NCBI GenBank assembly: GCA_025782575.1
Contig: JALGYY010000009.1
Coordinates: 1 to 64,000, forward strand
Direction: 5' to 3'
Source of the DNA: a bacterium
GTDB taxonomy: Bacteria > Orphanbacterota > Orphanbacteria > Orphanbacterales > Orphanbacteraceae
Length of the DNA stretch: 64,000 nucleotides
In this document: positions 2,783 to 27,183 of the stretch, piece by piece
How positions within the stretch are numbered: position 1 is the stretch's first letter
Layout of the letters: every line of letters starts with the position of its first letter
Notes under the pieces: model-generated
Database searches by the model: none
The model's input: only the letters and a program-made list of their open reading frames with translations
Told to the model about the DNA's origin: nothing
Position numbers and translations under genes: made by a program

Positions 2783-2893
2783 ACCTCAACCGCTCAACGC
2801 GGTTAGCCAATACCCTCAGCTCAGGATCTCTCTGCAGCCTCGAGCCTTGATTTGTCTATTTGCCTGACGACGCTCGGGGGTTCTTCCGCCACG

Positions 2894-3799: not shown

Positions 3800-3953
3800 T
3801 TGGGTCAGCCTAACACATAAAATGAACGGTAGAGTATAATAATTACCTAGAAGGACATGTTCCCCGCGAACCTCAAAGAAGGTACTATCCGACTATGGCC
3901 TTGGTAATTCGATAGGTTAACTCTTTATTTAGTAATGCCTAAGGACGAACGTG

Positions 3954-4838: not shown

Positions 4839-4893
4839 GCTCCCTACCAATTCTGTTAGCAGTGCGACTCCTATCGTGGAGGTGCCCCTACTC

Positions 4894-5871
4894 ATGGCCA
4901 AGAAGAAAGTGAAGAAGAGACTATCTCCAGATGGGATAGGCGTAAAAGATATTCCAACCAAATCACTACGCCCCAACCCTCACAATCCTAGAGTTCTCTT
5001 TGACCGAAAACCCCTCAAAGTTCTGCGTGAGTCGATCGAAAAGGTAGGAATCCTAGTTCCTCTCACCGTGTTTAAATCAGGTCGAAGCGACAAATACACA
5101 ATACTCGACGGTCAGCGCCGCTGGATCTGTGCGCAAGAGCTTGGTCTCAAGTCTGTGCCAGTTAACCAAGTGGCTGAACCAACATTACTTCAGAACATTG
5201 TCACGATGTTTCAAATACACAAACTGAGGGAAGATTGGGAATTGATGCCGACAGCGCTGAAGGTGGAAGTCCTAATGAAAGAACTTGGCGAGCGTGGAGA
5301 TGCTAGGCTAGCCGAACTGACTGGACTTGATCGAGCTGTCGTGTCCAGGTGCAAGAAACTCCTCTCATATCCACGCAAATATCAAGACATGATGCTGGAC
5401 CTTGACCCCGACTATCGTGTAAAGGCCGATTTTTTCATAGAACTCTATGCAGTTCGAAATGACCGAAATGTAAGGGCCATGCCGTGGTTCAAACCCGACA
5501 CCTTCACTCGGAAGATGCTTGAGAGATATCAGAAAAAGGGTGTTGATCCAAAGGCAGTTACGGATTTCCGCGTAATAAAGCAGCACATTACAAACGCTGT
5601 AAAGGCCAAAAGGAAGCCTCAAATTTCCAGGAACTTGCGCCAGTATGTTGCAGATACATCCTTGTCAATCGACCACCTTGCTCTTCCCGAGGCTCGAATT
5701 GGAACTGCCACTAGAACGCTGGTTCGAAAAATTGATGGACTGACCCTAAGTATCCGTGACATCGATGTTGAGAATTTTTACGGAGAATTCGATCTTTGGG
5801 AGTCTATGGAGAAACTAGTAGCGGAAATCAGAAAGAAGCTAAAAAAGGCTGATCGGAGACCCAAAGGGTGA
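4894..5871 (+). CDS. ParB/Spo0J-like N-terminal domain protein
   Basis: This 325-residue protein has a ParB-type domain at about 20-110: LRPNPHNPR, then the signature DGQRRWICAQELG that in ParB proteins lines the nucleotide (CTP) pocket. An HTH segment follows, LAELTGLDRAVVSRCKKLL (about 145). The C-terminal half (about 170-325) has no family I recognise and no coiled-coil dimer domain typical of chromosome-partitioning ParB. No parA lies nearby, so partitioning is unlikely. ATG at 4894 is chosen over an upstream GTG (4876) because GGAGG (4878-4882) serves it. The stop overlaps the GTG start of the next gene (GTGA), showing coupling. Related domains occur in phage DNA-modification and defence genes. 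Confidence 0.8.
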   Translation: MAKKKVKKRLSPDGIGVKDIPTKSLRPNPHNPRVLFDRKPLKVLRESIEKVGILVPLTVFKSGRSDKYTILDGQRRWICAQELGLKSVPVNQVAEPTLLQNIVTMFQIHKLREDWELMPTALKVEVLMKELGERGDARLAELTGLDRAVVSRCKKLLSYPRKYQDMMLDLDPDYRVKADFFIELYAVRNDRNVRAMPWFKPDTFTRKMLERYQKKGVDPKAVTDFRVIKQHITNAVKAKRKPQISRNLRQYVADTSLSIDHLALPEARIGTATRTLVRKIDGLTLSIRDIDVENFYGEFDLWESMEKLVAEIRKKLKKADRRPKG

Positions 5872-6698
5872 GATCCCCTTCCCCTCGTGGGACCCCAATT
5901 GATGACAATAGGATTAGAGAGTGGGTTGATCGGTTCGTGGGATACCGGCGTAGCGTGACGGTGGAGCGTGTCCAAGCCTACTTGGATCAATTCAAAAATG
6001 TTGACTTAGATATCGCTGCCAGAGTACTTGATGTGGTTGAGTTTTTTAATCCAGAAAACGTGGAAGATAAATACAGGGCATGCGAACAGAAATTGCCCAA
6101 CTGGGATCCCCATAATAGAGCCGCGCCGGCTAGGTGGCGGTTTGCAGCTTATTCTCGGTCTGCTGGTGAAAGCGGCAGCTCGATGCTTCATTCTTTTCGT
6201 ACCGCTGTTAACCTTTCGGCAAGTAAGTTCAATTCCTATTTCATCGAAAAGCGAGACCTCACTAAGGCAAGACTTACTTCAAGTGATTCGGTGGTATTTG
6301 TTGATGATTTTGCTGGTTCTGGAGACCAGGTCGTGCGCGAGTGGCCGCTAATGCGAGAGCTCATGTCCGGTGATCCCAATGCTTACTTATTGCTGGTGGC
6401 GGCTACCCAGCGTGCCAAAAAGAGAATTCGAGAAGAGACAGACCTGCAAGTAATCGTTGGTCGAACATTTGGAGATTCTGATGACTTTTTTAGTCCTGCA
6501 TGTATTCGTTTTGAGCTTCGAGATAAGAACAGGCTAGAAAAATATTGTAAGATAGCAGACTCTAAAAATCCAAGAGGATACAAAGAATGTGGGCTGCTCT
6601 GCGTATTTTGCCACAAGGCCCCGAATAATTCGCTTCCGATACTGCATGCGAATAAAAATAGAAAGTGGAAGGGCCTATTTCCTCGAGTGGGGAGATAG
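5868..6698 (+). CDS. PRTase-CE-like phosphoribosyltransferase-fold protein
   Basis: A 276-residue protein with GTG start overlapping the ParB-like stop by 4 bases. The PRPP-loop-like motif VVFVDDFAGSGDQ (Asp146-Asp147 ... Gly150-Ser151-Gly152) and the C-terminal LLCVFCHKAPNNSLPILH resemble the PRTase-CE family. That family was proposed from comparative genomics as an effector of prokaryotic conflict systems. Canonical enzymes of this fold use 5-phosphoribosyl-pyrophosphate; whether this one does is unknown. Placement at the end of a methylase-ParB unit in an integrase-bearing island supports a defence or DNA-modification role. The target is not evident. Family assignment is from motif recall. 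Confidence 0.7.
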   Translation: MRSPSPRGTPIDDNRIREWVDRFVGYRRSVTVERVQAYLDQFKNVDLDIAARVLDVVEFFNPENVEDKYRACEQKLPNWDPHNRAAPARWRFAAYSRSAGESGSSMLHSFRTAVNLSASKFNSYFIEKRDLTKARLTSSDSVVFVDDFAGSGDQVVREWPLMRELMSGDPNAYLLLVAATQRAKKRIREETDLQVIVGRTFGDSDDFFSPACIRFELRDKNRLEKYCKIADSKNPRGYKECGLLCVFCHKAPNNSLPILHANKNRKWKGLFPRVGR

Positions 6699-10168: not shown

Positions 10169-11320
10169 CTAGATAATCTGCTTATAAACATCGGCGTACT
10201 GACTTGCTATGTTGTCCCAGCAGTAGTCCCGCAAAATCTTCTCTCTGTTCTTTCGACCCATTTCCAGACGCAACTCGGGAGAGTTCTTCATCAGGATGAT
10301 AGCCTCTTGAATCTCCTCAACATTGGCCGGCTCCACCAGAAGACCGCCTTCCTGGTGAGTGATCAGGTCGACAATCCCACCCGTTCTTGTCCCGATAACC
10401 GGGAGGCCGCACGCCATGGCCTCTGCGAAAACCATGCCGAATGATTCGGCAAGGGAGGGCAGAATAAATAGGTCAGCGCCGTTATACAGTCTGGTCAATT
10501 CCAATCGCGGGCAGGATCCGTGAAACTCAACCCTGCCATTCAAACCTAGATCACTGCACAGCTTTTCCAACGCTTGCTTGTAGTTTCCGGTACCTACAAT
10601 GAGAAGGCGTATGTTGCCATCATCAATTCCACTCAGCGCTCTGAGAATGTGATCAATTCCCTTCCTATTGATCAGCCGGGAGACGGTAATTAGCTTAAAG
10701 GTGTCAGAAGATGCCGATGCTCCGCCGTCCGGTTTGAAGTGATCGGCTTCGATTGCATTCGATATCACTTCGATCTTTCGGTCGGGGGATGTTCTGAGGG
10801 CGGTTTGCCGAAGGCTGCTACTCAATGCAATCACGCGGCTCGCATTCGTCCAGATTCGCCTGTTGATCGATTGCAGAATCAGACCAAGGATATGTACGAC
10901 ACGATTATGCTTATCATAATGGGGAACATCCGATCCTCTGAGCGAAACAATGTAGGGCACCTTGAGAAATGACCAGGGAAGAAAGGAGAGCAATCCCGTA
11001 GGTATGCTGAAGAAATAATGCAACAGATCGTACCTCTCCTTGATTCGCAGGCTAAACAGTTTCATAGAGGCGAAAATCAGGTAGGTCAAAGCCCCCCTGA
11101 GGCCGCAGTCGTGAATTCCTTTCCTCCAGCTGATCACGCGGTAGATTCTTACTCCGTCCTTGATCTCATCTGCCTTATCACCGCGGCATCCTGACGTCAG
11201 GACAGAAACGTCATATCCCAACTTCACCAATTCTCTGGAAATATTGTGGGTAGCGTTGCCCGCACCCCCTCCAAGGGGTGGAAATTCATAATTGAGCATC
11301 AGGATCTTCTTCATCGGCAT
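10169..11320 (-). CDS. glycosyltransferase family 4
   Basis: A retaining sugar transferase of the GT-B fold, about 383 residues. The N-terminus KKILMLNYEFPPLGGGAGNA contains the acceptor-side Gly-rich loop; the C-terminal half has the nucleotide-sugar site with the EX7E-type motif FGMVFAEAMACGLPVIGTRT. It would add a sugar to a growing surface polysaccharide or glycolipid on the cytoplasmic face. ATG at 11320 (MPMKKIL) is preferred because residues start matching the family there; the frame stays open to an ATG at 11449. The gene is A+T-richer than its neighbours, suggesting separate acquisition. It is divergent from the ArnT-like gene. Confidence 0.88.
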   Translation of the reverse strand: MPMKKILMLNYEFPPLGGGAGNATHNISRELVKLGYDVSVLTSGCRGDKADEIKDGVRIYRVISWRKGIHDCGLRGALTYLIFASMKLFSLRIKERYDLLHYFFSIPTGLLSFLPWSFLKVPYIVSLRGSDVPHYDKHNRVVHILGLILQSINRRIWTNASRVIALSSSLRQTALRTSPDRKIEVISNAIEADHFKPDGGASASSDTFKLITVSRLINRKGIDHILRALSGIDDGNIRLLIVGTGNYKQALEKLCSDLGLNGRVEFHGSCPRLELTRLYNGADLFILPSLAESFGMVFAEAMACGLPVIGTRTGGIVDLITHQEGGLLVEPANVEEIQEAIILMKNSPELRLEMGRKNREKILRDYCWDNIASQYADVYKQII

Positions 11321-11463
11321 TCTCAATAATAAAGAGTCAATAAGAGTAGGGCGACCCGTATTGCCTTGGATCGATGGAACCTCGCGCCAACACCCATTAT
11401 TATAACAGTTTTTGAGCTCCTCATTCATCGGTTGTTCGCTGCTGCTCATTCCGGTAGTTTAGA

Positions 11464-13410
11464 ATGTCAATAAGTTCAAGCCCGGCAAAAGGTGGGCAGG
11501 CAATTCGTTCAAGGATTCGGCGAGTGGCTGTGAAGACTGACAACAGAGGCGACTATCGCATAACGCTGTTCCTTGTAATCATGCTCGCGTCCGCATCAGT
11601 TCTATATGCCTGGATCCTGCCTCAGCGTTGGATCACCCCGGACGAAGGGGCACACCTGATGGACGGTCGCCGCATCGTTACTGATGGATTGCCTCCGTTC
11701 AGTCTCGGCGCACGTCAGCCGGTTTACTGCTATATACTCGCTGCCTCCCAGCTAATGTTCGGAAATACACTTCTTGCCGGTCGTATCGTCGCGTTGGTCG
11801 CCACAATACTGACCGGAATCCTCCTGTTTTGCATCGGGAGGCGATTCGGCGACGGGGCGGGTCTCATAGCGACTGCCCTGTTCCTGTTCTCTCCATTGAC
11901 GCTGCATTACGCGACGGTCGTTCAAACGCAGCCATTGTCCATCCTGATCTCCTGCCTGATTGTCATGCTCGCGATCTCGAGCAGACGCGGGGCCTTTTTC
12001 GGCGCGGGGTTGCTCATCGGCTTCGGTTTCCTTGTGCGCGAGTCGGTCCTCGCCATCGCACCGGCGATCCTGATCTACATCTTCCTTGTCAGCAGCAGCA
12101 TGCGCTCGGCTCTTCGGTCTGCGTTCACGTTGTTCGCCGGATATGCCGTCGTTTGCGCTCTTGTGCTCACGTTCTATTCAAACTGGTGGGATTTTTCCGA
12201 AGTGTGGAACTCCCGGATCAACCCGCTTTATCTTCCCCAGCAAATAATAGAAAGCGTTCTGGAGCCGGACTCGGGGCGCATGGCGGCGCCGGCCAGAACT
12301 GACTCCGTACCCTCTGACACTCGTTACGGCGCCCGCTCTCTTGCAACAGGCTTCCGTTTCGCGGCGCTTTCGATTGTTCCGGGATTTTGCGCCCTCGCCT
12401 CTATCTTCGGAGGCTGGTGGAGCGGCCGGCGCCGAAAAATCATGGCGCTTCTTGCCGGCTGGATCGCATTTCTAGCAGTCATGTACGGTGGCTGGTCGGG
12501 CGATCACGGTTTTCAGCCGGGATATATGCGCGAGTTCGAACCCCCTTTGGCGATACTCGCGGCGGGTGCCATTGCTCATGCGCTGAGAACGCTATCCCGT
12601 CCATGGTGGTACAGTCCCCTGGCTGTAGCAGGGCTCCTGATAGCGGTTCTCACTCGGGCGAGCAGCTTCCCCGTCTGGCTGGAATCAGTCACTCTTGCGA
12701 TTTACGCCGGGGGGGGGATTCTTTTCGTCGACATTCTACACTCTCGGGATGGTGCCAATCGACTTGTGCTATCTGGCGGTCTCGGATTCGCGCTGCTATT
12801 AATTTTCTTTTCCAGGCGCCCGGGCGGAGTTCTGCATTCGGTGCAAGGTTCCGGTTTGTTGCTTCTCATTGGTGCAATTATTGTTTTCTTGTTGCTTCTC
12901 CTGCGCGTTGGCCGGATTCGAAACCCCGGTTCGCCCCTCTTCCTTGCGGTAACTTTCGCTTCTATTGTGTTCGCGACGATTTCCGCCATTGCGATCGGCG
13001 GATTCAATTTCCATGGGCAATGGCCGCCGGAATCAGGTGCCAGAGTGGCTCAGGTGCTGCGTAACAAGACGCCCGAGACCGGGGAAGTGATGTCAGGAGG
13101 GGTGATCTGGGAGTATCTTGCGGGCCGAAAATCATTCGGCAATCTGAACCACCCGCTCATTTTTCGTGCAATGAACAAAAGCAGATATTTAACCAAGAAG
13201 GTGCTGGAAGCATATGAAGGCAGGCCTCCCGATGCCGTTGTACTCGACGGTTATACTGACAAGACATTCCTTCAGAATCCGGATATAGCCGCAGCCGTTG
13301 CCCGCGAGTATGAACGCTACGATCCGGAGGGCACAAAACTGCCGGTTACTATCCTGCTTCGTCGGAATGAGTCACGAGCCGGGAGCGGACAATTCGATAC
13401 TTCCCGTTAG
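11464..13410 (+). CDS. ArnT/PMT-like membrane glycosyltransferase
   Basis: A 648-residue polytopic protein with about 12 hydrophobic helices. The first external loop carries ITPDEGAHL (Asp60-Glu61), the acidic pair that in GT39/GT83-type enzymes such as ArnT forms the active site. A C-terminal soluble segment follows the last helix (about 520-648), also family-like. Such enzymes transfer sugars from polyprenyl-phosphate donors outside the cytoplasmic membrane, to lipid A, proteins or glycans. Substrate unknown. Its 3' end overlaps the convergent PaaK-like gene by 62 bases. Confidence 0.82.
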   Translation: MSISSSPAKGGQAIRSRIRRVAVKTDNRGDYRITLFLVIMLASASVLYAWILPQRWITPDEGAHLMDGRRIVTDGLPPFSLGARQPVYCYILAASQLMFGNTLLAGRIVALVATILTGILLFCIGRRFGDGAGLIATALFLFSPLTLHYATVVQTQPLSILISCLIVMLAISSRRGAFFGAGLLIGFGFLVRESVLAIAPAILIYIFLVSSSMRSALRSAFTLFAGYAVVCALVLTFYSNWWDFSEVWNSRINPLYLPQQIIESVLEPDSGRMAAPARTDSVPSDTRYGARSLATGFRFAALSIVPGFCALASIFGGWWSGRRRKIMALLAGWIAFLAVMYGGWSGDHGFQPGYMREFEPPLAILAAGAIAHALRTLSRPWWYSPLAVAGLLIAVLTRASSFPVWLESVTLAIYAGGGILFVDILHSRDGANRLVLSGGLGFALLLIFFSRRPGGVLHSVQGSGLLLLIGAIIVFLLLLLRVGRIRNPGSPLFLAVTFASIVFATISAIAIGGFNFHGQWPPESGARVAQVLRNKTPETGEVMSGGVIWEYLAGRKSFGNLNHPLIFRAMNKSRYLTKKVLEAYEGRPPDAVVLDGYTDKTFLQNPDIAAAVAREYERYDPEGTKLPVTILLRRNESRAGSGQFDTSR

Positions 13411-14620
13411 ATTCGGGAGGGATTTTGTCGACAGGTACTACTGCAAGTCTCAATCCCGGCAGGAGAGGCGTGATTGTATTAAGAATCATCTCCTTCAATG
13501 AATCGTCATAACTGTCGACGGGAACAACACACACAACCACACAGGTGCGATCGTCTTGAATAAGTTGGAACTGGGCGATCCCCTGCAGCTCTTCCAGCGG
13601 ATTGATCAGGGTGTAGGGGGAGATGAGCGAGCCGTCCGGCAGAACGAAGTATTCCACGCTCCGTCCGAAACCGGGGGCCATGAGAGGGAGGGAACGCCCA
13701 CAGGAGCACGACTTCTCCAGCATGCGGCCCGTGTCTCCGATTTGATACCGGATCATCGGCATTCCGTAATTGTAAAGGGAGGTAACAAGGAGAACCCTGT
13801 CTGCATCGTCACCGCTGGTGAGCCGATCGCCCGTCTCCAGCAGAAGCCAGTCGCTGTTCAGATGGTAACCTTCCCCCCGAGGGCACTCCCAAGCGATTTC
13901 TTTCACCTCCGTGCTGCCGTAGACGTCGTACACCGGGGCGCGAAAAGCCTCCTGAATGATTCTCCTCGTCTCGCTGTTCAGCATTTCCCCGGATGTGATG
14001 ACCATGGTCGGCCTTAGAAAATCGCCTCCTTTTTCAGCCAGCATTCGAAAGTGCCCCGGGAACCCATATAGTACATGAGGCTTGTACGATCTCAGGCGAG
14101 GCAGGATCTTCTCGATCGGATCGAGCGCTGAAAAAGATATCTGCCGCTTGATCAGGCGCCTTACGGGACTGTTCCGGAAACCGGTGGCCTGGAAGAGAGC
14201 GATCCTGTGCCAGGGACGTACGCCACACGCGAAGCGCGCCCTCGCTTTCAAAAGCGTTTTCCCAATGATCCACGCTTCCGGATCAAAGAAGGTCTCGACA
14301 CTCTGGCCGGTTGATCCTGAAGAGAAAGACCGGTGCATCTTATCGGGATCCGCGCCATCGACGACAAGCTCCCGAGCATTTCGGAGATCTTCCCGCTTAG
14401 TAATGGGCAGGTGCCGCAGGTCTTCACGGCACCGGATATCATGCGGTGAAATTCCTGCGGCCGCAAATTTCTTCCGATAAAAGGGGGAATTTCGAGTGGC
14501 ATGATGGAGGAGCCGCTGGAAGCGTTGCCACTGCAGGCTGTCGAGCTCTTCCCTGGAACGCCGCTGATCACTGTTGATAGCGGGAAGGTATTTGAACAGG
14601 GTTCGGGCACTTCGAACCAT
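13349..14620 (-). CDS. PaaK/CapK-like AMP-forming ligase
   Basis: A 423-residue adenylating enzyme of the phenylacetate-CoA ligase group. Motifs: phosphate loop SFSSGSTGQSVETF (about residue 97-110), the VYDVYGSTEVKEIAWEC region, and MPMIRYQIGDTG with the hinge Asp, followed by a CSCGRSLPLM zinc-knuckle-like stretch and a small C-terminal lid ending SNGKYRIVRS. The family activates carboxylic acids as acyl-adenylates and often passes them to CoA; CapK members occur in capsule clusters. It starts 87 bases after the TonB receptor gene on the same strand and may be the last gene of that unit. Confidence 0.82.
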   Translation of the reverse strand: MVRSARTLFKYLPAINSDQRRSREELDSLQWQRFQRLLHHATRNSPFYRKKFAAAGISPHDIRCREDLRHLPITKREDLRNARELVVDGADPDKMHRSFSSGSTGQSVETFFDPEAWIIGKTLLKARARFACGVRPWHRIALFQATGFRNSPVRRLIKRQISFSALDPIEKILPRLRSYKPHVLYGFPGHFRMLAEKGGDFLRPTMVITSGEMLNSETRRIIQEAFRAPVYDVYGSTEVKEIAWECPRGEGYHLNSDWLLLETGDRLTSGDDADRVLLVTSLYNYGMPMIRYQIGDTGRMLEKSCSCGRSLPLMAPGFGRSVEYFVLPDGSLISPYTLINPLEELQGIAQFQLIQDDRTCVVVCVVPVDSYDDSLKEMILNTITPLLPGLRLAVVPVDKIPPESNGKYRIVRSRLVTHSDEAG

Positions 14621-14707
14621 TTGATCTGCTCCGCTCCCGGCGCATCACCGATCTCCTGCTGCCCGGGTCAATCACCGGGAGGGGAGGATTGCGAGCCCGC
14701 TTGTAGC

Positions 14708-16819
14708 TTACATCCTCACCCGTAGCCCGCCGTGGATCATCCTCGGCATGCCCAACTCAGTCAGACCGGTCGATGTCGGCCGAACCTCGAAGGCCTTATC
14801 CAGCAGGTTTTCGACGGAAAGAAAACTCTCTGCCCACGGCGATATCCTTCTGGATACTTGCAGGTCGACGACAAACAGGTCGTTGATTGGAAGGTCGTTG
14901 ACGTCGTTTTCGAAACGATCGCCTACAAATCGTGCCTGTACGTGAGCCGCGAAAAGGGAGGGCTTGTTGAATGAACCATTCAGCACAAAGTGATGTCGGG
15001 GTACGTGTCGAATTCGGTTCCCGACCAGGTTCGAGTCGGCCGACTCAATCAACTCGGCGTCGTCGTAAATATAGCTGCCGGTGAAACTCCAGAACGCGTG
15101 GGGAACCAGGCTGATCTCGACCTCCACTCCTCTTGTGCGAAGTCTGCCCACGTTGTTTTGCTGCCGGCAAGTGCCGTCTTCCGGCAGGAGTCCGCACGGT
15201 TCAATTACGGCGGCGGAGTCGCGGGCGACTCCCATAGTCTTCAGAGTGATCGTCCCATCCACTTCACTCCAGAATCCGGTCACTTTGGCATCAAAGAAAG
15301 AAGTGGGGCTATAGTTGAAACCGAACTCGCCGCCTACCAGGTCTTCGGGGCCGAGGTCAGCATTGCCTGCGTTAACCGTGCTGCTCCCGGTGGTCCTGTA
15401 GAGCTCACTTATGGTAGGAGCGCGAAATGCCTTGTATGTGCTCCCTCGAAGGGAGACTGAATTCGATGCGTGGTAGACGACGCCCAGGCTCGGGCTGAAG
15501 GCAGTATTGCTTACGTCGGGTGAGTTCGTCTCGCTGATCAGTTCACTGGTGCCCAGGACGCGAACGTTGGAAAAACCGCTCTTGTTTTTGATCTGATCCA
15601 GCCGGGCACCCAAGACGACATTCCAACGAATCGTCGGGGTCCAGATCTCTTGAGCGAAGACTCCACCCATGATCTGCTTACCGCCGAGCCTGCTGTCTTT
15701 AGTAAATATTTCAAATTCTCTATCCCAGCCGGTGAATTCATTGGAGCGTGAATCGCTCCACAGAAAATCAGCGCCGATCGCCAATCTGTGAATGGTCGTA
15801 AACTCTTTTGCCCACTGAAGATTCGCGCCCACTGAGACGGCACCCAGATCGTAGCGCTCAGATCGAGGAGTTTCAGATTCACGCGATCTCGCTATGGACG
15901 TGCTTACGCTGTTGCCGCTGCGAGAAGTGGAAAATAGATTAAAATTCCATTCACTACCGTCGGAAGTCCCTATATCTGCGCCGATATTATAATACCGATT
16001 GATCATTGACGACAGGGAGAGGGGTGTGCCGTTTGTCTTGTCTTCATCAGAGAAGCTCGCTCGGCCGTAGATTCGGCTGCCGGGGGCCAGTTCGAAGTCA
16101 ATGCTCCCGTTGTACGTCTCGTTGCTTAGGCTTACCCTTTCGTCTACTCGCCCCAGATCTTCCTCGCTGTATTTGAAATAGCCGTCCGTGCTGTATAGAT
16201 TCGAACCGAATGAATAAGAGACTCGTCCGTTTCGATCGGCGGCGAAGAGATCAAAATTTGAATTTCCCCTGGTTCCACCCTCTGCAAGGAAGCGAACCGT
16301 ACGCTCTGTCGGCCGTTCGGTGATAATCTGAATGACACCGCCCAGCGCTAAATTGCCCCAGATACCCGATCCTCCTCCGCGAACAACTTCTATTCGCTCG
16401 ATCGACTCAAAGGGTACGCGGCTCCAGATAATGAAGTTGCCGAACGGGTCGTTGAGGGGAATCCCGTCGAGCAGAACAAGAGTCCTGGATGTCGCCGACT
16501 GACCCACACCGCGGAGCGATACTCCCTGGATGGTCTGGCCGGATACGATGCTGCTCTGCTGTCTCAGCAGAGAAAAGCCCGGGATTTTCCGCAACAGGTG
16601 ATCCACGCGGACGGCGGCCGAGCTTTCGATGGTTTCTCGATCAACTATAGTGACATTCGCGGCGATATCCGCGGCATCCTGAGTGGAGCGAGTGGCTGTG
16701 ACGACAATCGGTCTTGCGGTCCTTGCGTCTTCATCCACCGCGCTCGCTTCATCTGCAGAGACCGTGCCAAAAATTACGCAAGAAACAATGCAAACGGATG
16801 CCATTGACAAGAATTTCAT
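14708..16819 (-). CDS. TonB-dependent outer-membrane receptor
   Basis: A 703-residue protein with a signal peptide (MKFLSMASVCIVSCVIFGTV). A plug domain spans about 35-165 (IVVTATRSTQDAADI, then VRVDHLLRKIPGFSLL, LVLLDGIPLNDPFG and IERIEVVRGGGSGIWG); a 22-strand-type barrel follows to the C-terminus. Such receptors take up scarce ligands (metal chelates, cobalamin, sugars, aromatics) using TonB energy. Ligand unknown. GGAGG lies 6 bases before the ATG, which is 16 bases after the ABC permease gene, so receptor and importer are likely co-transcribed and handle the same substrate. The last residues (GLRVRM) lack the usual terminal Phe. Confidence 0.92.
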   Translation of the reverse strand: MKFLSMASVCIVSCVIFGTVSADEASAVDEDARTARPIVVTATRSTQDAADIAANVTIVDRETIESSAAVRVDHLLRKIPGFSLLRQQSSIVSGQTIQGVSLRGVGQSATSRTLVLLDGIPLNDPFGNFIIWSRVPFESIERIEVVRGGGSGIWGNLALGGVIQIITERPTERTVRFLAEGGTRGNSNFDLFAADRNGRVSYSFGSNLYSTDGYFKYSEEDLGRVDERVSLSNETYNGSIDFELAPGSRIYGRASFSDEDKTNGTPLSLSSMINRYYNIGADIGTSDGSEWNFNLFSTSRSGNSVSTSIARSRESETPRSERYDLGAVSVGANLQWAKEFTTIHRLAIGADFLWSDSRSNEFTGWDREFEIFTKDSRLGGKQIMGGVFAQEIWTPTIRWNVVLGARLDQIKNKSGFSNVRVLGTSELISETNSPDVSNTAFSPSLGVVYHASNSVSLRGSTYKAFRAPTISELYRTTGSSTVNAGNADLGPEDLVGGEFGFNYSPTSFFDAKVTGFWSEVDGTITLKTMGVARDSAAVIEPCGLLPEDGTCRQQNNVGRLRTRGVEVEISLVPHAFWSFTGSYIYDDAELIESADSNLVGNRIRHVPRHHFVLNGSFNKPSLFAAHVQARFVGDRFENDVNDLPINDLFVVDLQVSRRISPWAESFLSVENLLDKAFEVRPTSTGLTELGMPRMIHGGLRVRM

Positions 16820-16835
16820 TAGCTACCTCCGGGGT

Positions 16836-17615
16836 TTATGTTCGGGTCTTGGAATCCCAAGGCACGAACCGGCTTAACAAAAATTGAACAAAAAGACGAA
16901 TACTGATTCCGACCGCAGCGGCCGTAACAATAGTGGCGTAAAGTTCTTCGATTCTCAGGGTCTGCCAGGCCATCCATATAAGGGTTCCGATTCCCTTGTC
17001 GGCCAGAAGAAGCTCCACTGCCAGACTGATTGACAGTGAGACGTTCAGACCAAGCCGCACGCCTGCGAGTATGAACGGAGTCGCTCCTGGCAGCACCACG
17101 CGGCGGAGTACCTGTAACCGGCTCGCCCCGCAATTCTGAGCGACGTCAAAGTAAATCGGATGGATCTGCCTGACCCCGGCCATGGTGTTGATCAACATCG
17201 GGAAAAAGGATGCGACCGCAACAACAATGGTCCTGGAGACAAATCCGATGCCGAATATAATCATGATTATCGGTAGCGACGAAATCTTGGGAACAGGATG
17301 AAGGGCCGCAATAAAGGGGTCAAAGATTCGGCGAACGGGTAGCGACCACCCCATCATCATACCGAGAATCATGCCCGGTATGCCTCCCAGCACAAATCCG
17401 GTGAGGAGGCGGGTGACGGTTGCGGCAAGATGCTCGAGCAGGGCCCCTTCGGTCGTCATCCTATAGAGCGTTGAGACCACCACCGTCGGCGGCGGAAAAA
17501 AGAGAGACGGGAGAATCTCCATCCGTGTAATGAACTCGAGGCAGCCGAGCGTTGCGATAAGAATGACGGGCGGGATGATCAGGAGCGTTTTCTCTCCCAT
17601 CTCATGCCGGCTCAT
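16836..17615 (-). CDS. ABC transporter permease, NitT/TauT (SsuC-like) family
   Basis: A 259-residue inner-membrane permease with about six helices. The cytoplasmic coupling-loop motif that docks the ATPase is seen around PIYFDVAQNCGASRLQVLRR. FFPPPTVVVSTL near the N-terminus is also typical of SsuC/TauC permeases. Its start overlaps the ATPase stop by 4 bases. Families of this type import sulfonates, nitrate, taurine, thiamine precursors or aromatic acids; the sequence does not decide which. Confidence 0.9.
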   Translation of the reverse strand: MSRHEMGEKTLLIIPPVILIATLGCLEFITRMEILPSLFFPPPTVVVSTLYRMTTEGALLEHLAATVTRLLTGFVLGGIPGMILGMMMGWSLPVRRIFDPFIAALHPVPKISSLPIIMIIFGIGFVSRTIVVAVASFFPMLINTMAGVRQIHPIYFDVAQNCGASRLQVLRRVVLPGATPFILAGVRLGLNVSLSISLAVELLLADKGIGTLIWMAWQTLRIEELYATIVTAAAVGISIRLFVQFLLSRFVPWDSKTRT

Positions 17616-18388
17616 TGCGACCCCTCGAGGCTGCTACGGACTTCCTCCTCGAGAATGGTCCAGATGTGTTCCTTGATCTCGATGATTTCGGCTTTGTCTC
17701 TGTCGCGAAGATCCCGCGGCCTCGGCAACGGAATACGAATATCCTCTCGAATTCGACCCGGCCGGCCTGTCATGACGAGCACGCGGTCTCCCAGCAGAAT
17801 CGCTTCTTCGATATCATGCGTTACATAGAGGACCTGTTTCTTTTCCGCACTCCAGATACGCAAAAGTTCTTCCATCATCACGAGCTTGGTCATGGCGTCG
17901 AGCGAACCGAAAGGCTCGTCCATCAGCAGAATTTCCGGGTCGTTGACGAATGCCCTCGCGATACTCACGCGCTGACGCATTCCGACGGATAGTTCGTGAG
18001 GGTAGCTCTGCTCAAAGTGAGCGAGCCCGACGCGTTCAATAAACTTGTGGGATATCTCGTTTCGTTCCTGTCGTCCGACCCCTCGCATCTCGAGTCCGAA
18101 TGCGACATTTTCCAGCACATTCATCCATGGAAAAACGCCGTGCTCCTGGAAGACCATGGCGTTCAGCGGTTTTCCGTTTGTACCTTGTGTCTGGAAGATT
18201 ACTTCGCCGGCGGTAGGATCAAGAAGACCGGCGACAATCTTGAGAATTGTGGATTTACCGCACCCGCTCGGGCCGAGCAGGCAGACAAACTCATTCTTGC
18301 TCACAGTAAACGAGACGTCAGTCAGCGCCTCGAGCCCGCCGCTCTGAGTCTTGTAAGTGACGGCCAGATTTCTGCATTCAAAGCTCAT
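17612..18388 (-). CDS. ABC transporter ATP-binding protein, NitT/TauT family
   Basis: A 258-residue ATPase with Walker A LLGPSGCGKSTILK (about residue 36), Q-loop VFQEHGVFPWM, signature region ELSVGMRQRVSIARA, Walker B ILLMDEPFGSLDA and switch His in YVTHDIEEA. The length and C-terminal tail fit SsuB/TauB. It powers the permease at 16836-17615. It lies 6 bases after the substrate-binding protein gene. Confidence 0.93.
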   Translation of the reverse strand: MSFECRNLAVTYKTQSGGLEALTDVSFTVSKNEFVCLLGPSGCGKSTILKIVAGLLDPTAGEVIFQTQGTNGKPLNAMVFQEHGVFPWMNVLENVAFGLEMRGVGRQERNEISHKFIERVGLAHFEQSYPHELSVGMRQRVSIARAFVNDPEILLMDEPFGSLDAMTKLVMMEELLRIWSAEKKQVLYVTHDIEEAILLGDRVLVMTGRPGRIREDIRIPLPRPRDLRDRDKAEIIEIKEHIWTILEEEVRSSLEGSQ

Positions 18389-18394
18389 CTCGCG

Positions 18395-19408
18395 TCAGTT
18401 GCCTTCTGACAGCACACGATTCGCGTGCTCAATGAAGGAGGGGTCCCAGAAGCCCTCTACGGGAACGACGCCGTCTATCAACCCCTCATCGGTCGCCCAG
18501 GCCTGATACTTGAGCAGACTCTCCGTATCGTATTCACCGGTCTCTCGGATGGGCGGCCAGCATGCATCTCGAACCAGATCCTGGTCAAGACCGGTCCCCC
18601 GGGATATGGCCAGGACGTTTCGATCCGTCTTCCCTTCGTTGTAGATACGGACCCCCCGAAGATAACCGACCATGAACCTCATCCCGGCGTCCCTGTCCTC
18701 TTCGAGCAGACTCGGTCCGAACATGATGAAGCTGTGCTGAAAATCCGGGACGACTTCGCGGGCTGGAAGCCAGACGACGCCTGCACCGGACTGAACAATA
18801 CGGGTGATCCACGGTTCAGATGCGTTCACGATGTCCACTGCTCCGGCGTCGAGAGCTGCTTGCTTGGCAGCCGTAGGCAGGTCAATCCAAACGACGTCGT
18901 CCGGAGTCAGATTGCCCTTCGCCAGCAGGCAGCTTGTGCTGTAGTAGCTCGTGGATGTTCTTTCTCCGGCGATACGGAGGCCGCGAAGATTTTCGAAGTT
19001 ATCCAGTCTCCCGGACTCGACGAGCTCTCTTTTCGCGAGGAACGCTCTGTAGGCGCAGCCTTCCCTTTCCATGTGACCTTTATCCGCCACAAATCGAATG
19101 TCAGCCCCCCGGTACATGAGATTGAGATAACCCGGGGTGATGAACCCGGGGACCACATCGAGTCTTCCCTGAGCAAGCGCGGGCAAGGATTCCCGCGTCC
19201 CCCTCATTACGACGAACTCGATATCGAGTCCCAGGTCTTCAAAACAACCGTTTTCCTTGGCGATGTGGATCACCGCCCAGGATATGTATGGGGACTCTAC
19301 CACTTTCAGCTTTGTTCGCTCCGGTGTTTCGCCAGCAATGGCAGGGACCCCCCATAGAAAGCTTGCGCCCAGAAGAATCAGAGTCAGGATTTGGCGGCGA
19401 TACGTCAT
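18395..19408 (-). CDS. ABC substrate-binding protein, NMT1/THI5-like
   Basis: A 337-residue periplasmic binding protein. A signal peptide (LTLILLGASFLWGVPAIAG) is followed by the type-II fold: LKVVESPYISWAVIHIAKEN, then CFEDLGLDIEFVVMRGTRES and LPALAQGRLDVVPGF. NMT1/THI5-like receptors bind sulfonates, nitrate, pyrimidine thiamine precursors or aromatic carboxylates. Gene order places it between a PaaK-like ligase and the ATPase; the ATG overlaps the ligase stop. The paired ligase hints at a carboxylic acid ligand, which is inference. Confidence 0.88.
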   Translation of the reverse strand: MTYRRQILTLILLGASFLWGVPAIAGETPERTKLKVVESPYISWAVIHIAKENGCFEDLGLDIEFVVMRGTRESLPALAQGRLDVVPGFITPGYLNLMYRGADIRFVADKGHMEREGCAYRAFLAKRELVESGRLDNFENLRGLRIAGERTSTSYYSTSCLLAKGNLTPDDVVWIDLPTAAKQAALDAGAVDIVNASEPWITRIVQSGAGVVWLPAREVVPDFQHSFIMFGPSLLEEDRDAGMRFMVGYLRGVRIYNEGKTDRNVLAISRGTGLDQDLVRDACWPPIRETGEYDTESLLKYQAWATDEGLIDGVVPVEGFWDPSFIEHANRVLSEGN

Positions 19409-21060
19409 CAGGATTCCTTTCCCAGAGAAGCATCGTCGCTCTTTGACCTATTGGGTTTCAGCTTTATGAGATGGAGGGGCAGGAGTTTGCCACGAGTCGT
19501 CCAGATCGGATCGCTTCTCTTGACCCGCAACGTCTTTGCCTGTTTCCACATTGCTCGCGCCCCATCGGCGCTTTCGCTCTCCTTCCCGAGCCCGTCAAGA
19601 ATCGTATTAATTACCGCGTCTTCACTTTCGATTTTCAGCCGGGGGCTGATATGGATGGAGAGTTTGGTGAAACCGAGTTCGTCTTCTTCTTCGACAAGCT
19701 GATAATCGAGTGCGGAGCCACCGTATCGTTCGGGCAATGTCTTGTAAAGAATTGTCTCCATCTCGCTCCCGACCAGACTCATCCCTTCACCTGTCAGCTT
19801 TCGAAAACTTCGGATATTTCGGATGTGTTCTGTGAAGCCGTATTCTTCCATAGGGCAGCCGCACGATCGCGTTTCTACCGTGCCGTAATCATCGATCTCG
19901 ACATTGAGAAGGATTTTTTTGGCCGTGGCAAGTAGCGTAGTGAAATTGAACGCCTGCACCTCGATGTCCGTTCCGGGAACCTGTCTCGGAAACTGGAGCA
20001 GTGCAAGGTGGTCTTTCATGAAGTGCTGGTCGTTGCAATCGATAGGGTTGACGCAGGCACGGCCTACCGCTCCCACTTCCGAAAAACTGTAGCCGGCTCT
20101 GTAGCGGGCGCCGGATTTCCTGATCGTGTTCGCCTTGGTCTCCGTCGGCGGCTCGCCCCCGCCGGCGAGAACCGCGCCGGTAAGGTCGATCCCTTCATCA
20201 ATGGCGGCGATGGCGATGCGGAGGCTCATACTTGCGAAAGCGCTCATGTGGCAGGATCCTCGTTCCTTCACGGTCTGCGCTACCCAGCGGGCGATGACTA
20301 CCGCCTCGTCCAGACGTACCGGTTCGGGGCTGGGGAACGGCTCCCCGTAGAATCTGCCGAGTCGAATGATCCAGTCATTCGCGAGTCGATATTTGAGAGA
20401 GGGCCGGCGGTCTTCTCTCAGGAGGGGCGTGAACCAGCGTAGCGGTACATTGCCCACTTTGGCTCCCCCAAGCAACCCCCCGACGCCGAGACTGTTCGGC
20501 AGGATGCCCCGCCATATTCCGCGTGGCATGCCGATCGTCCCGTGTGCTGCACCTGAGATCAGGTTTTGCGAAGCTTGTGCCGTCATTGATTCCAGATCGA
20601 ATGCGACGCGCGCTGCCGTGCCGGTGCTTCCACCTGTCGTGCCGTAGTAGGATTGACGGAGAAATGGATTGTCGAAATCACGGGAGGTCAAATAGTAAGT
20701 CTTGCCATCGCATTCAACTGGTTCGCGTCCCTTGAACTGCTCGAAAGTGAAGCAGACACCCGCTTCGCGTAGCTCTCGCAGCGAGAATTCGAGACCGCGC
20801 CTTTGGACGGAATCACGCAGGTCACCGAACTCGCACCCTGCCCGTTTCAGCAATGGTAGATAGGGGCTCTTGGAGTATCCGAAGATTCCTTTCTCAGCGA
20901 CCCGAAGAAAATTTGATTCTCTCTCCTGAAGGCGTTTTCGAATGTCTTCACGAGCCTCTTCGAGAGTAACCTTTTCTCGAAGGAAGCGTTTGAGGCCGAT
21001 TGAGAACCGACCATACTTCAACAAATCGTTTAAACGCTGCATCTGCTCCTCTGACGGCAC
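19408..21060 (-). CDS. PaaK/LuxE-like adenylate-forming ligase, first gene of importer unit
   Basis: A 550-residue protein with the adenylation P-loop YYGTTGGSTGTAARVAF (about 140), AGYSFSEVGAVG in place of the usual YG-x-TE motif, and a Cys pair ETRSCGCPMEE as in PaaK/coenzyme F390 synthetase relatives. It is longer than typical PaaK (about 430) owing to an N-terminal helical extension of about 130 residues. The substrate is unknown; activation of an acid imported by the downstream ABC/TonB system is a working idea. ATG at 21060 is used; a second ATG (21042) with GAGGAG close by is possible. Confidence 0.75.
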   Translation of the reverse strand: MPSEEQMQRLNDLLKYGRFSIGLKRFLREKVTLEEAREDIRKRLQERESNFLRVAEKGIFGYSKSPYLPLLKRAGCEFGDLRDSVQRRGLEFSLRELREAGVCFTFEQFKGREPVECDGKTYYLTSRDFDNPFLRQSYYGTTGGSTGTAARVAFDLESMTAQASQNLISGAAHGTIGMPRGIWRGILPNSLGVGGLLGGAKVGNVPLRWFTPLLREDRRPSLKYRLANDWIIRLGRFYGEPFPSPEPVRLDEAVVIARWVAQTVKERGSCHMSAFASMSLRIAIAAIDEGIDLTGAVLAGGGEPPTETKANTIRKSGARYRAGYSFSEVGAVGRACVNPIDCNDQHFMKDHLALLQFPRQVPGTDIEVQAFNFTTLLATAKKILLNVEIDDYGTVETRSCGCPMEEYGFTEHIRNIRSFRKLTGEGMSLVGSEMETILYKTLPERYGGSALDYQLVEEEDELGFTKLSIHISPRLKIESEDAVINTILDGLGKESESADGARAMWKQAKTLRVKRSDPIWTTRGKLLPLHLIKLKPNRSKSDDASLGKES

Positions 21061-21263: not shown

Positions 21264-22763
21264 CTATGTTTTCCGGAGATCCTTGAGTAAGACGATCACA
21301 TCGCTAACCGTTTTCCTGCCGGCTGGAAGGAGAATCAATGTGATCAGATAGAAAACGGAGAAAACGCCGGAATCGAACAGGAGGCGAACTGGGCTGACGG
21401 CGGCAAATGATGTTAGCGAATGAATGCCGTGAAGACATGCCGCTGCGATGAGCGTGCCCAGGATCGGGAGGACAAAAGCGCCGGCCAGGTCACCGGTTTG
21501 AAGGGGTGTCGACCGAAAGCAATACCGCGATCCGGGCAGGATCAGCAAGACGCTGGTAAAGGAGTACCCGAGGGCTACGCCATTAACTCCCCAACGGACT
21601 CCCAGGGTGATCCCGATGACGATGATGACGAGAGAGAAACATTCCCAGCGGAACTGTCGGCCCGCGTTTCCGAGGGAGACGAAAGCCCAGTGAAGGCCCA
21701 TCTGCCCAAGCGTGGCCAGTGCAGCCGGAGCCAGGCGACGAAACAGTGGGATAGTCGTTGACCACTGGTCGCCGAGCAGAAGGATGACAATCTGGTGTGC
21801 GTCGAGGAAGAGGAAACCGATCGCCGGTGTACCAAGAAGCGCGACGATTTGAATTCCCTGCCGAAAGTAAGCGCGCAGTCGCTCGGGCTCGTCGGTAAGT
21901 CGACTGAGTGTCGAGATGGCAACACCTGCGATGGGCATCATGAGGCGGTTCACCGGCCCCGGAAGCGAGTCGCTTGCACGGGCGTAGTAGCCCAACGCAC
22001 GGGCATCCCAGATGCGGCCTACTAGAAATCGATCGAAATTTCGGGAAACGTATCGAACGATTCTTGTTGAAGTGAGAAATCCCCCGAAAGCGACCATCGA
22101 ACGCACGGATGAAAAGTCAAAATAGAAAGAGGGCCGCCAACCGCAGACCAACCAGATGATGAGGATTCGGATCGAAGTTGCTGAAAGACGTAGGATGACC
22201 AGGGACCAGTAACCCGCCCCGAGGAGAGCGGCGGAGATACCTGCCAGGAGTCCTATGGCCTCCGAAGTAACCTGCGCGAACGCGATCGCCTTGAAGCGCA
22301 TCTGTCGTCTGAGCAGCGCTCTGTGCTGGATTGTCAAGGCGTCGATCGCAGCGATTCCGCCAACGGCCATGGCAACGGGCGTGAGGCGTTCGTCCTGGAA
22401 GAACCATGTCAGGAGGGGAGCGGTTATCACAGCCGCAGTAGCCAGCAGGATGCCGAATGAGGCGTTAATCCAGAAGAGGGTGCTCACAATTTCCTGGCTG
22501 AGTTCTTTTCTCTGGACGGTAGCTGTGGAGAGCCCAAGGTCACGGAGAACAGAAAAGAGGGCGATCGTCGTTGTGGCCATGGCGAAGAGTCCGAAATCAT
22601 CGGGCCTGAGAAGCCGGGCAAGCAGCATGGTGGACGTGATGCTGAGAGCGATTCGTGCGCCCTGGGATAGTAGAGTGACCATACCGGCCCGCACGGAGCG
22701 GCGGCGCATGCCTTCCCCGAGATGGGCTGTCCGGAAGTGATCGTCGGATGATCGACGTTTCAT
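21264..22763 (-). CDS. lipopolysaccharide/O-antigen flippase (Wzx/WzxC-like)
   Basis: A 499-residue membrane protein with 12-14 helices of the polysaccharide transporter family. Family-like N-terminus: MVTLLSQGARIALSITSTML, then LARLLRPDDFGLFAMATTTI and FSVLRDLGLSTATVQR. It would move lipid-linked oligosaccharide units across the inner membrane for surface glycan assembly. GGAG lies 6 bases before the ATG. It is divergent from the ATP-grasp gene. Confidence 0.9.
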   Translation of the reverse strand: MKRRSSDDHFRTAHLGEGMRRRSVRAGMVTLLSQGARIALSITSTMLLARLLRPDDFGLFAMATTTIALFSVLRDLGLSTATVQRKELSQEIVSTLFWINASFGILLATAAVITAPLLTWFFQDERLTPVAMAVGGIAAIDALTIQHRALLRRQMRFKAIAFAQVTSEAIGLLAGISAALLGAGYWSLVILRLSATSIRILIIWLVCGWRPSFYFDFSSVRSMVAFGGFLTSTRIVRYVSRNFDRFLVGRIWDARALGYYARASDSLPGPVNRLMMPIAGVAISTLSRLTDEPERLRAYFRQGIQIVALLGTPAIGFLFLDAHQIVILLLGDQWSTTIPLFRRLAPAALATLGQMGLHWAFVSLGNAGRQFRWECFSLVIIVIGITLGVRWGVNGVALGYSFTSVLLILPGSRYCFRSTPLQTGDLAGAFVLPILGTLIAAACLHGIHSLTSFAAVSPVRLLFDSGVFSVFYLITLILLPAGRKTVSDVIVLLKDLRKT

Positions 22764-25239: not shown

Positions 25240-27171
25240 CTAGAAAAACCTGTTCAACTGGATGACCGACTCGATCAAGTTATGATTCCGTTCTTCCCGG
25301 AAAACGACTTCCCCGCTGATACTGAGATCCGCCGCTATTCGGAAATTCTGGCCGAGCCCGGTCCGGAGCAGGTTATCCTCGTCGCCGAAACCATGGTAGA
25401 CATCCCTGGCGAACAGGTGCAGTTTCCACCAGCTCGTCAGGTTCTTCAATATGCCGGTGGAGCCGCCGCCCCCCAGAGAATACGAATGCTCCAGTGCGCC
25501 GCCCACATGAAAGTCGCTCTCGAACATCATGTACCAGAGGCCGAGCAGTCGGCTTTCATACGCGTATCCGAAACCGGGATTCAGACCGTAGATCATATAG
25601 TTTTCCCCGTTATCCATCTGTCTCCGAAAGAACCCCGTACTGATCTTCCAGGAGGTGTGTTTGAAAAAGGCGTTACGGGGTGCGATCGAAACGATATTGA
25701 TGAGATCGACGTTTTCGATTTCGAAATCTCGTTCCAACGAGTGGTACCGGAGGACAGCATCTACGAACACGATCTGTGAGCCTCTCTTGTAGCCGCTCTC
25801 GTTGTCGAGCAATACATGATACGCTGGCCGAAGTCGGATCTCCTGAAACGGCCTGTCGTCGTTTGCGCCGTAACCGACACTGAATCGATTCGAGTGATGA
25901 CCTTCATCGGGCCGGCCGGGCACTGGAATCGAATAGCGCTCCTCATCGGCATCGCCGAGTGAGCTACGGGCCTCCAGCGTTTTCAGAAAGCGGTCGAGAT
26001 ACTGATCCTTGGGGAGTTCCTTCTTGCTGTGTCTGTATTGCAGATACTCACTCGCCAGGTCGAGCACAGCGATCTTCTCGTCACGCCCGCGACCGCTGGT
26101 GAGTACGCTCTCGGCCGGCTGATCGCCCGCCGCGATTGAAAGCGCCTGCTCCTGGCCGGATTCCGGCAGTAGCGAAGCGATGTGCTTGATCTTGGTAGAC
26201 TTGGACGGCCTGAATATCACGTCGCTCATCAGGCCGGCCTTTTTAACCAATCGAATCGTATCGAGCGGAATCACCCACCAGGATGCACGATCCGTAAGAT
26301 CAAGCCCCGGTCTTGCCGCGTCCAACAGAAACAGCAGGTCGTAGGAGCAGTTCTCGCTGAAGAAGTAATAGTCAGATCCGATCTCCTGCAGTTCATAGAT
26401 GTGCATCATGAGCCGCCGTACTTCATCCCGATTCAGCTTGAGGGAATACTCCCAGATGTCCCGATCGTTTACGTCGCTGTATTCCTGGAGTTTGGCGTAG
26501 TACGGAAGGATCGAAAAGTAGCCGGGATAGAGCCCGAGCAGTCCCTTGACGATGTAGAACGGGCCGAATGTCTCGTTCGTAAAGGCTGAGTAGTTAATGG
26601 CGTATGCGAGAAGTTTGCTCTCGTATGCGGTTTCGATCGTAAGCAGAGTGTGACCGTACATCGATGCCGGACTGTTCATGTGAGAAGTGGGGAAGATCAG
26701 AGTGACCGATTCCGGCCGGATATGCTCCATCAGCTGTTCAAACGGCCGGCAGCCCGGAACGGGAAGCTGCGATTCCTTGAAACTCAGGCGCTCCTTCAGC
26801 CAGTCGTATCGAGCGATAAACCGGCAAACCGGGTGGCGCCCACCGTCTCTAATGGGATCGAAGAACGCGCGAATCGTCGCTCGGAGTTCAGCCTCCGGAT
26901 TTTTCTTTCCTTCAGGGGAAAGAAAAAACTTATCGTCGTCCACAAGGCTCCGCAGCCCGAAGAGTCCCTTCTTGTAGTGAAGAAGCGTGTGCCAGTAGGG
27001 ATCGTCGTGAAGCTCGAGGCGACGCGCATCATCGAGAAGCGCCAGCAACTGATCGCTGTCCCGCGGAGGTGTCGGAAATAGAGCGCCGGACCACGACGGC
27101 AGGAGCAGAAAGAGAAAAAGGAGCATGCGGACCGGAAGAACCGACCGCACACTCCCTCTCGAGTTCATCAA
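25240..27171 (-). CDS. DUF4105 (Lnb-type periplasmic) protein with C-terminal barrel-like domain
   Basis: A 643-residue exported protein. A signal segment (MLLFLFLLLPSWSGALF) precedes the DUF4105 domain (about 150-320): SVTLIFPTSHMNSPASMYGH, with the conserved His, then NYSAFTNETFGPFYIVKGL and YYFFSENCSYDLLFLLD, where the Asn-Cys pair recalls papain-like amidases. The last 250 residues alternate as beta strands and end in FF, as in outer-membrane barrels. It sits between a DUF3015 protein and a lipoprotein gene. Related Lnb domains act on lipoprotein N-acylation in Gram-positives; the role here is unknown. AGGAG 12 bases upstream supports the start. Confidence 0.85.
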   Translation of the reverse strand: MMNSRGSVRSVLPVRMLLFLFLLLPSWSGALFPTPPRDSDQLLALLDDARRLELHDDPYWHTLLHYKKGLFGLRSLVDDDKFFLSPEGKKNPEAELRATIRAFFDPIRDGGRHPVCRFIARYDWLKERLSFKESQLPVPGCRPFEQLMEHIRPESVTLIFPTSHMNSPASMYGHTLLTIETAYESKLLAYAINYSAFTNETFGPFYIVKGLLGLYPGYFSILPYYAKLQEYSDVNDRDIWEYSLKLNRDEVRRLMMHIYELQEIGSDYYFFSENCSYDLLFLLDAARPGLDLTDRASWWVIPLDTIRLVKKAGLMSDVIFRPSKSTKIKHIASLLPESGQEQALSIAAGDQPAESVLTSGRGRDEKIAVLDLASEYLQYRHSKKELPKDQYLDRFLKTLEARSSLGDADEERYSIPVPGRPDEGHHSNRFSVGYGANDDRPFQEIRLRPAYHVLLDNESGYKRGSQIVFVDAVLRYHSLERDFEIENVDLINIVSIAPRNAFFKHTSWKISTGFFRRQMDNGENYMIYGLNPGFGYAYESRLLGLWYMMFESDFHVGGALEHSYSLGGGGSTGILKNLTSWWKLHLFARDVYHGFGDEDNLLRTGLGQNFRIAADLSISGEVVFREERNHNLIESVIQLNRFF

Positions 27172-27183
27172 TCGAGGAAGCTC

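Follow-up and report, generated by a model that had tools for sequence, protein, structure and literature searches.

TonB-dependent receptors and NMT1-type binding proteins exist in great numbers, mostly with unassigned substrates. Here we describe a gene row that joins members of both groups to the gene for a ligase, LigB, in a 64,000-nucleotide stretch of an Orphanbacteraceae genome (contig JALGYY010000009.1, positions 1 to 64,000; hereafter the window), and that resembles several described systems in part. The PaaK-type ligases (PaaK1/PaaK2, BT_0428, NatL2, ClxA and 2-hydroxyisobutyryl-coenzyme A (CoA) ligase) share with the LigB model the fold over most of the chain, motifs of the ANL type and a C-terminal GK lysine, whereas LigB is 11-15% identical to PaaK-family structures (296-409 aligned residues), lacks any Pfam or NCBIfam match, has about 30 additional N-terminal residues and is tied to uptake genes. 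The ATP-binding cassette (ABC) importers SsuABC, TauABC and NrtABC share Pfam families and best NCBIfam models with the ABC parts of the window, which fall below the equivalog cut-offs among the matches listed and stand in the same gene row as a TonB-dependent receptor and a ligase. Pyrroloquinoline quinone (PQQ) carries carboxylates. Its TonB-dependent importer PqqU of Escherichia coli and the periplasmic PQQ-binding protein PqqT, which come from different bacteria, each serve this scarce cofactor (PMC12124388). The likeness to the window lies in the use of a TonB receptor and in a binding protein of PqqT fold (Z 25); the window receptor, in contrast, scored 56 bits against the PqqU model NF041535 (cut-off 1200), and the accessible part of that source names no ligase for the PQQ system (PMC12124388). 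The TonB receptor DdvT, which serves Sphingobium sp. SYK-6 for an aromatic compound from lignin, is alike by description, and no ligase cassette is named in the accessible part of its report (PMC6874591). The titles and abstract beginnings of the open-licence PMC text that was searched describe no such ligase-receptor cassette.

The LigB cassette

The cassette is made up of LigB, an NMT1-type substrate-binding protein (SBP), an ABC ATPase, an ABC permease and a TonB-dependent receptor. This unit differs from the one proposed in the first-pass annotation, in which two PaaK-like ligases, LigB and LigA, bracketed the uptake genes as a dedicated route for a scarce aromatic or other carboxylic acid. 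On balance, we favour the view that the five genes are dedicated to importing and activating a scarce carboxylic acid.

All six open reading frames of the proposed bracket were confirmed on the minus strand, in the leftward order and at the coordinates claimed, with the overlaps and short gaps described for them. LigB (19408..21060) comprises 550 amino acids when counted from the GTG at 21060, although the ATG at 21042, located behind an AGGAG, is the more likely start. Its gene meets that of the NMT1/SsuA-type SBP (18395..19408; 337 amino acids, with an N-terminal signal peptide recognised by eye) in a TGATG overlap. The SBP gene is followed after 6 nt by that of the TauB/SsuB-type ATPase (17612..18388; 258 amino acids), which overlaps the gene of the TauC/SsuC-type permease (16836..17615; 259 amino acids) in an ATGA, and 16 nt containing a GGAGG separate the permease gene from that of the receptor (14708..16819; 703 amino acids). 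In contrast to these tight junctions, 87 nt lie between the receptor gene and LigA (13349..14620; 423 amino acids). Promoter- and terminator-like matches did not rise above those in shuffled sequence, and a single transcript covering all six genes is unsupported.

Pfam and NCBIfam profile searches with LigB returned no match, and the single match among PDB sequences (E 0.78) was not convincing. A structure model was built with AF2 from an alignment of 36 rows, window LigB included (predicted local distance difference test (pLDDT) 85.9, predicted template-modelling score 0.86). Foldseek and VIA-align ranked PaaK-family structures at the top, with Z from 23.4 (2y4o) to 19.5 and the next entry at 14.2, and a profile comparison with LigA and its relatives gave a probability of 98.2% (E 3.4e-14). 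Based on the structure ranking, the low identity and this profile comparison, LigB is modelled as a far-diverged PaaK-fold, adenylate-forming ligase; it was structure and profile comparison with LigA relatives, not the sequence libraries, that bore out the earlier description of LigB as PaaK-like. The 36-row alignment contains a P-loop-like TGG[ST]TG, GGEPPT, YxFSE and DDYG, and G144, G147, E328, D391 and the lysine of the C-terminal GK, K525, are invariant or nearly so. We take these motifs to include the P-loop, the Y-x-x-[ST]-E motif and the C-terminal lysine of ANL enzymes. Both the fold and the motifs of PaaK-type members of the ANL superfamily were thus found in LigB, which probably activates an acid. 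The P-loop region (residues 138-152) was poorly modelled, and the extra N-terminal residues were modelled as a helix. One LigB copy, at L017 (G101:C164:35541-37112), is broken by a TAG stop.

The SBP (PF13379, 48.8 bits, cut-off 24.7), the permease (PF00528) and the ATPase (PF00005, 113 bits) all exceeded their Pfam cut-offs, and the receptor contains both a plug (PF07715, 77 bits) and a beta-barrel domain (PF00593, 161 bits). The sequence PIVVTATR after its signal peptide is presumably a TonB box, as judged by eye. No cassette protein exceeded an NCBIfam cut-off among the matches listed (for the ATPase the best 25 of 186 families, for the receptor the best 25 of 29). The taurine, sulfonate and nitrate models remained below their cut-offs (TauC 137/342, TauB 225/357, SsuA_fam 67.5/163.5, ntrB 99/209 and ntrCD 201.5/291.8 bits), as did, among the 25 receptor families, those for B12 (TonB-B12, 150/600 bits), hemin (145/317 bits) and siderophores (131/223.5 bits). 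The AF2 model of the SBP (pLDDT 91.1) resembles CmpA, NrtA, SsuA, TauA, thiamine-precursor proteins and PqqT.

Recurrence and exchange of uptake genes

LigB was found in three of seven genomes of the same family (G000, G002 and G005). The first LigB copy of G002 lies in the order Wzx-LigB-SBP-ATPase-permease-receptor at 65-86% identity, followed by a BBE-type flavoprotein, and in G005 the same Wzx-to-receptor order lies on a contig of 6.5 kb whose ends truncate the two outermost genes. In the window, the Wzx/MOP-type flippase (21264..22763, minus strand; PF13440, 262 bits) lies directly upstream of LigB; its relatives in the same place are 65% (G002) and 59% (G005, cut by the contig end) identical. 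The expectation that the six-gene order would be conserved failed for LigA, and the sixth gene retained in this lineage is Wzx. All four PF13379 matches in the seven genomes are binding proteins beside LigB, and the four genomes that gave no LigB match gave no PF13379 match either. A second G002 copy has the order LigB-SBP-receptor; past the receptor, Wzx is encoded on the opposite strand, and the locus also includes a divergent pair of GT4 and LigA.

The survey was performed on metagenome-assembled genomes, with genes read from open frames. Set 1 (35 loci, four of them from the same family: L011, L012, L019 and L039) was obtained from a peptide-pattern scan of 84,980 species genomes, in which 91 stretches matched and 36 encoded a relative. 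For set 2, additional LigB matches in 21 of the set-1 genomes were gathered as 30 regions, fragments and weak matches being excluded. Set 3 comprised eight loci (E <= 1e-190) that were fetched after the pattern had been seen, from samples of the phyla of L022 (titled Acidobacteria; three loci) and L030 (titled Gemmatimonadota; five loci). Profiles of partner families were built from sets 1 and 2 and searched in stop-to-stop frames of at least 90 codons. Near and far denote, in set 1 and within the same loci only, the regions within 3.5 kb of LigB (190 kb) and beyond 5 kb (158 kb). LigB is rare: at E <= 1e-190 it occurred in 4/297, 3/395, 1/400 and 6/395 genomes of four phylum samples, seeds included, and it was absent from the plasmid records searched. 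The LigB-bearing records are titled Syntrophaceae, other 'Deltaproteobacteria', Acidobacteria, Gemmatimonadetes, Chloroflexota, Brocadiaceae, Armatimonadetes, a Gammaproteobacterium and Candidatus Eisenbacteria.

An uptake match was located within 3.5 kb of LigB at 27 of the 35 set-1 loci. There were 50 such matches near LigB, 49 of them on its strand, and none far from it. Of the eight loci lacking a match, four (L024, L039, L040, L045) lie on contigs that stop at LigB or inside it, two (L034, L041) have less than 1 kb of flank on one side, and L018 and L043 are well flanked. Uptake matches were also present at 12 of 30 set-2 loci (that of L071 weak and on the opposite strand) and at seven of eight set-3 loci. 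Wzx was enriched in set 1 (8 near, 0 far), and glycosyltransferases were not clearly so (10 near, 4 far). The p-values rest on an earlier count round that differed slightly from these final numbers: uptake 47/0 (p 5e-13), TonB-dependent receptors 8/0 (p 0.008), Wzx 7/0 (p 0.015), glycosyltransferases 10/5 (p 0.26) and, for a further contrast, 26/30 versus 4/15 (p 1e-4). It is scarcely credible that common genes became neighbours by chance: many bacteria have ABC and TonB genes in abundance and 27 of the 73 LigB loci have no nearby uptake match, yet the 158 kb of far flank in set 1 contained no uptake match against 50 near LigB, and PF13379 occurs in the seven family genomes only beside LigB.

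The identity of the partners varied. In the Gemmatimonadota sample, three loci (L094, L096, L097) contain the same five genes as the window in another order (LigB-SBP-receptor-ATPase-permease), L095 has LigB-SBP-receptor and L098 LigB-SBP-ATPase-permease. The SBPs of L094-L097 are 34-37% identical to that of the window and the receptors 30% (L094, L096) or 35% (L095) over 670-710 positions, the L097 receptor having been called by Pfam. A single open frame in L096 that could be read as an SBP-receptor fusion was set aside; a frameshift or overlapping genes are likelier, because the receptor begins with a signal-like sequence of its own and the C-terminus usual for the SBP is missing. NMT1-type ABC parts are the inner-membrane partner at most LigB loci. 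Elsewhere, the tripartite tricarboxylate transporter (TTT) stands beside LigB, with TctC and TctA in L015, L022 (identified by Pfam), L026, L030 and L037 and TctC in L028 and L029, and one locus each has TRAP DctM (L023) or a DASS/CitMHS carrier (L038). Receptors like that of the window lie near LigB in L011, L012, L019, L094, L095 and L096, Oar-like receptors with carboxypeptidase-regulatory domains in L022 (by Pfam) and its cluster mates L026, L033, L035 and L038, and a SusC/SusD pair in L031. The LigB tree mixes ABC, TTT and TRAP partners with 13 of its 33 inner forks open, so that the carrier exchanges are not countable. What these findings establish is the set of genes, the fact that it recurs, and a PaaK fold that carries conserved motifs of the ANL type. 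The joining of outer- and inner-membrane uptake to an acid-activating type of ligase, noted in the window at first pass, thus recurs well beyond it, in same-family genomes, the Gemmatimonadota sample and the survey.

Possible cargo and competing explanations

We infer the import direction, the catalysis and a carboxylate substrate. In the proposed mechanism, the TonB receptor would bring the acid, either free or bound to a carrier, through the outer membrane, the SBP would bind it in the periplasm, and the ABC ATPase and permease would carry it into the cytoplasm. LigB would then use ATP to convert it to an acyl-adenylate and hand it to a thiol or other acceptor, and this activation would trap the acid inside the cell. 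TTT, TRAP and DASS families commonly carry carboxylates, as do some NMT1-type importers. Replacement of the ABC importer by TTT, TRAP or DASS carriers therefore favours a carboxylate, and the carboxylic acid suggested at first pass was a reasonable guess. More tentatively, LigB might represent a new PaaK-fold branch defined by its partnership with uptake and a portable import-and-activate module, in which carriers from four unrelated superfamilies (ABC, TTT, TRAP, DASS) and three kinds of receptor (classical TonB, Oar-like, SusC/SusD) serve to trap the same scarce acid as an activated thioester in distant phyla. As LigB stays constant while the transporter family changes, an assay of which acid it adenylates could reveal what several unrelated uptake systems carry. 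As to what becomes of the acid, the flippase beside the window cassette tips the balance slightly towards its being built into a product, linked to a glycan, that is exported. Genes for Wzx, polysaccharide deacetylase, methyltransferase and phosphodiesterase in the vicinity of LigB likewise suggest that a product is built, and the neighbours of LigB in the TRAP locus suggest breakdown.

Several observations weigh against an import-and-activation cassette for a carboxylic acid. The SBP fold carries nitrate, bicarbonate, sulfonates and thiamine precursors, so it does not name the ligand or force a carboxylate. The uptake link weakens with the LigB profile score across the 73 loci (at least 700 bits, 28/33; 600-700, 9/11; 500-600, 5/14; below 500, 4/15), with 9 of 29 loci under 600 bits retaining it, which places it mainly in the nearer LigB subfamily. 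Five loci of at least 700 bits lack uptake matches: L018 and L093 have ample flanks, those of L063 measure 2.1 and 4.5 kb, L034 offers 0.6 kb on one side, and the contig of L024 breaks off at LigB. The flanks of the second G002 copy yielded neither an ABC ATPase nor a permease, and TRAP and DASS, each seen at one locus, may stand there by accident. Finally, the partner categories were picked from set-1 neighbours, and set 2 shares the set-1 genomes.

A catabolic route, in which phenylacetate- or benzoate-like acids are degraded after CoA activation, is unlikely. PDB titles assign aryl acids to several PaaK-fold enzymes, and a biphenyl compound derived from lignin has a TonB receptor, DdvT (PMC6874591). 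In the TRAP locus, LigB is accompanied by an Amidohydro_2 protein and a molybdopterin oxidoreductase, which suggest degradation there, and L095 encodes an ethylbenzene-dehydrogenase-type haem protein. PaaA and PaaC, in contrast, were over cut-off in none of the seven family genomes (three had a single weak match under it; the search did not extend to other aromatic routes), no ring-degrading gene was present among the scanned window ORFs, and several loci have Wzx beside LigB. Phenylacetate catabolism as the purpose was rejected on the PaaA/PaaC result, and the qualifier 'aromatic' of the first-pass annotation was dropped, as PaaK-fold enzymes also include a 2-hydroxyisobutyrate ligase (6he0).

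Alternatively, the cell could recapture a product of its own: LigB would activate an acid in the synthesis of a secreted metabolite or metallophore, exported by the MOP flippase and re-imported by the receptor, SBP and ABC parts. TonB receptors commonly serve siderophores, Wzx-type matches lie near LigB in 8 of 35 set-1 loci, and in the Syntrophaceae locus L013 the vicinity of LigB contains genes of the radical SAM, methyltransferase, PALP and HMGL types. This reading is nevertheless improbable, given a receptor below the siderophore, haem and B12 cut-offs among its best 25 of 29 NCBIfam families, and no such synthesis genes among the scanned window ORFs; to our knowledge, NMT1, TctC, TRAP and DASS partners are not usual metallophore importers.

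It is more doubtful still that ligase and importer are functionally unrelated, in which case LigB would use an endogenous acid to modify a glycan and the importer would share the cluster and nothing more. Glycan genes do flank the window cassette, and the Wzx count of set 1 fits; uptake matches, however, are tied more closely to LigB than glycosyltransferases are, and unrelated uptake families substitute for one another beside it. No glycosyltransferase match was found within 10 kb of the first G002 copy (L012), where profiles were used and not every ORF was scanned. The set-1 Wzx assignments derive from Pfam (L013, L038, L045), from matches to the window Wzx (L011, L012, L019) and from clustering with L013 (L025, L044). 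An apparent flippase-LigB fusion in L091 was rejected: its N-terminal part is arginine-rich and has no Pfam match, so it was read as a shadow frame and its Wzx match discounted. The case shows that the Wzx profile is capable of a false match.

LigA and neighbouring genes

LigA matches the PaaK-type structure 4r1l (E 2e-22), falls just below the Pfam AMP-binding cut-off (28.5 versus 29.9 bits) and scores 82 bits against the PaaK equivalog TIGR02155 (cut-off 646). Its nearest relatives (43-44% identity) adjoin a GT4 gene, and 35-36% identical relatives of the window GT4 glycosyltransferase (10169..11449, minus strand) adjoin LigA relatives in G002 and G005. At the second G002 copy and in G005, this LigA-GT4 pair adjoins LigB on the opposite strand. 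No LigA match was present in 35 kb around the first G002 copy, where the flavoprotein follows the receptor, or at the eight set-3 loci, except one of 33 bits in L093, and a six-gene unit with both ligases was rejected on these grounds. LigA-like ligases near LigB in 3 of 35 set-1 loci (L019, L039, L044; 5 near, 0 far) and 3 of 30 set-2 loci (L067, L079, L081; none in far flanks) weigh against a clean rejection. L044 has three LigA relatives at 25-33%, one of them within the operon. The pairing is thus occasional, not absent, and from these neighbourhoods we judge LigA to be adjacent to the cassette and not a steady member of it. A linkage of the ligases to glycan genes only, raised at first pass as grounds against the proposal, fits LigA with its GT4 pairing and not LigB with its uptake genes. 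The glycan cluster said to surround the row does exist, with GT4, a PMT-type transferase, the Wzx-type flippase and a sugar-transfer ATP-grasp protein between 10169 and 24155, as a small setting.

Further observations concern the surroundings. At 25240-27651 of the window, genes for a Lnb_N/DUF7840 protein and a DUF3015 protein adjoin the glycan genes. On the other side, genes for a serine recombinase, a MerR-like regulator, a D12 DNA methyltransferase, ParB_N and PRTase-CE stand in a row (1029-6698) that looks like a mobile or defence island. BBE-type flavin adenine dinucleotide oxidases lie near LigB in two genomes (L010:2883-4637 and L093:13143-14561). Nitroreductase, PALP-type and HMGL-like genes (clusters C16-C18) lie near LigB-ABC genes in L013 (7017-14380), L017 and L025; L013 and L025 also contain a flippase gene, L013 has radical SAM genes besides, and the group looks like a biosynthetic cluster.

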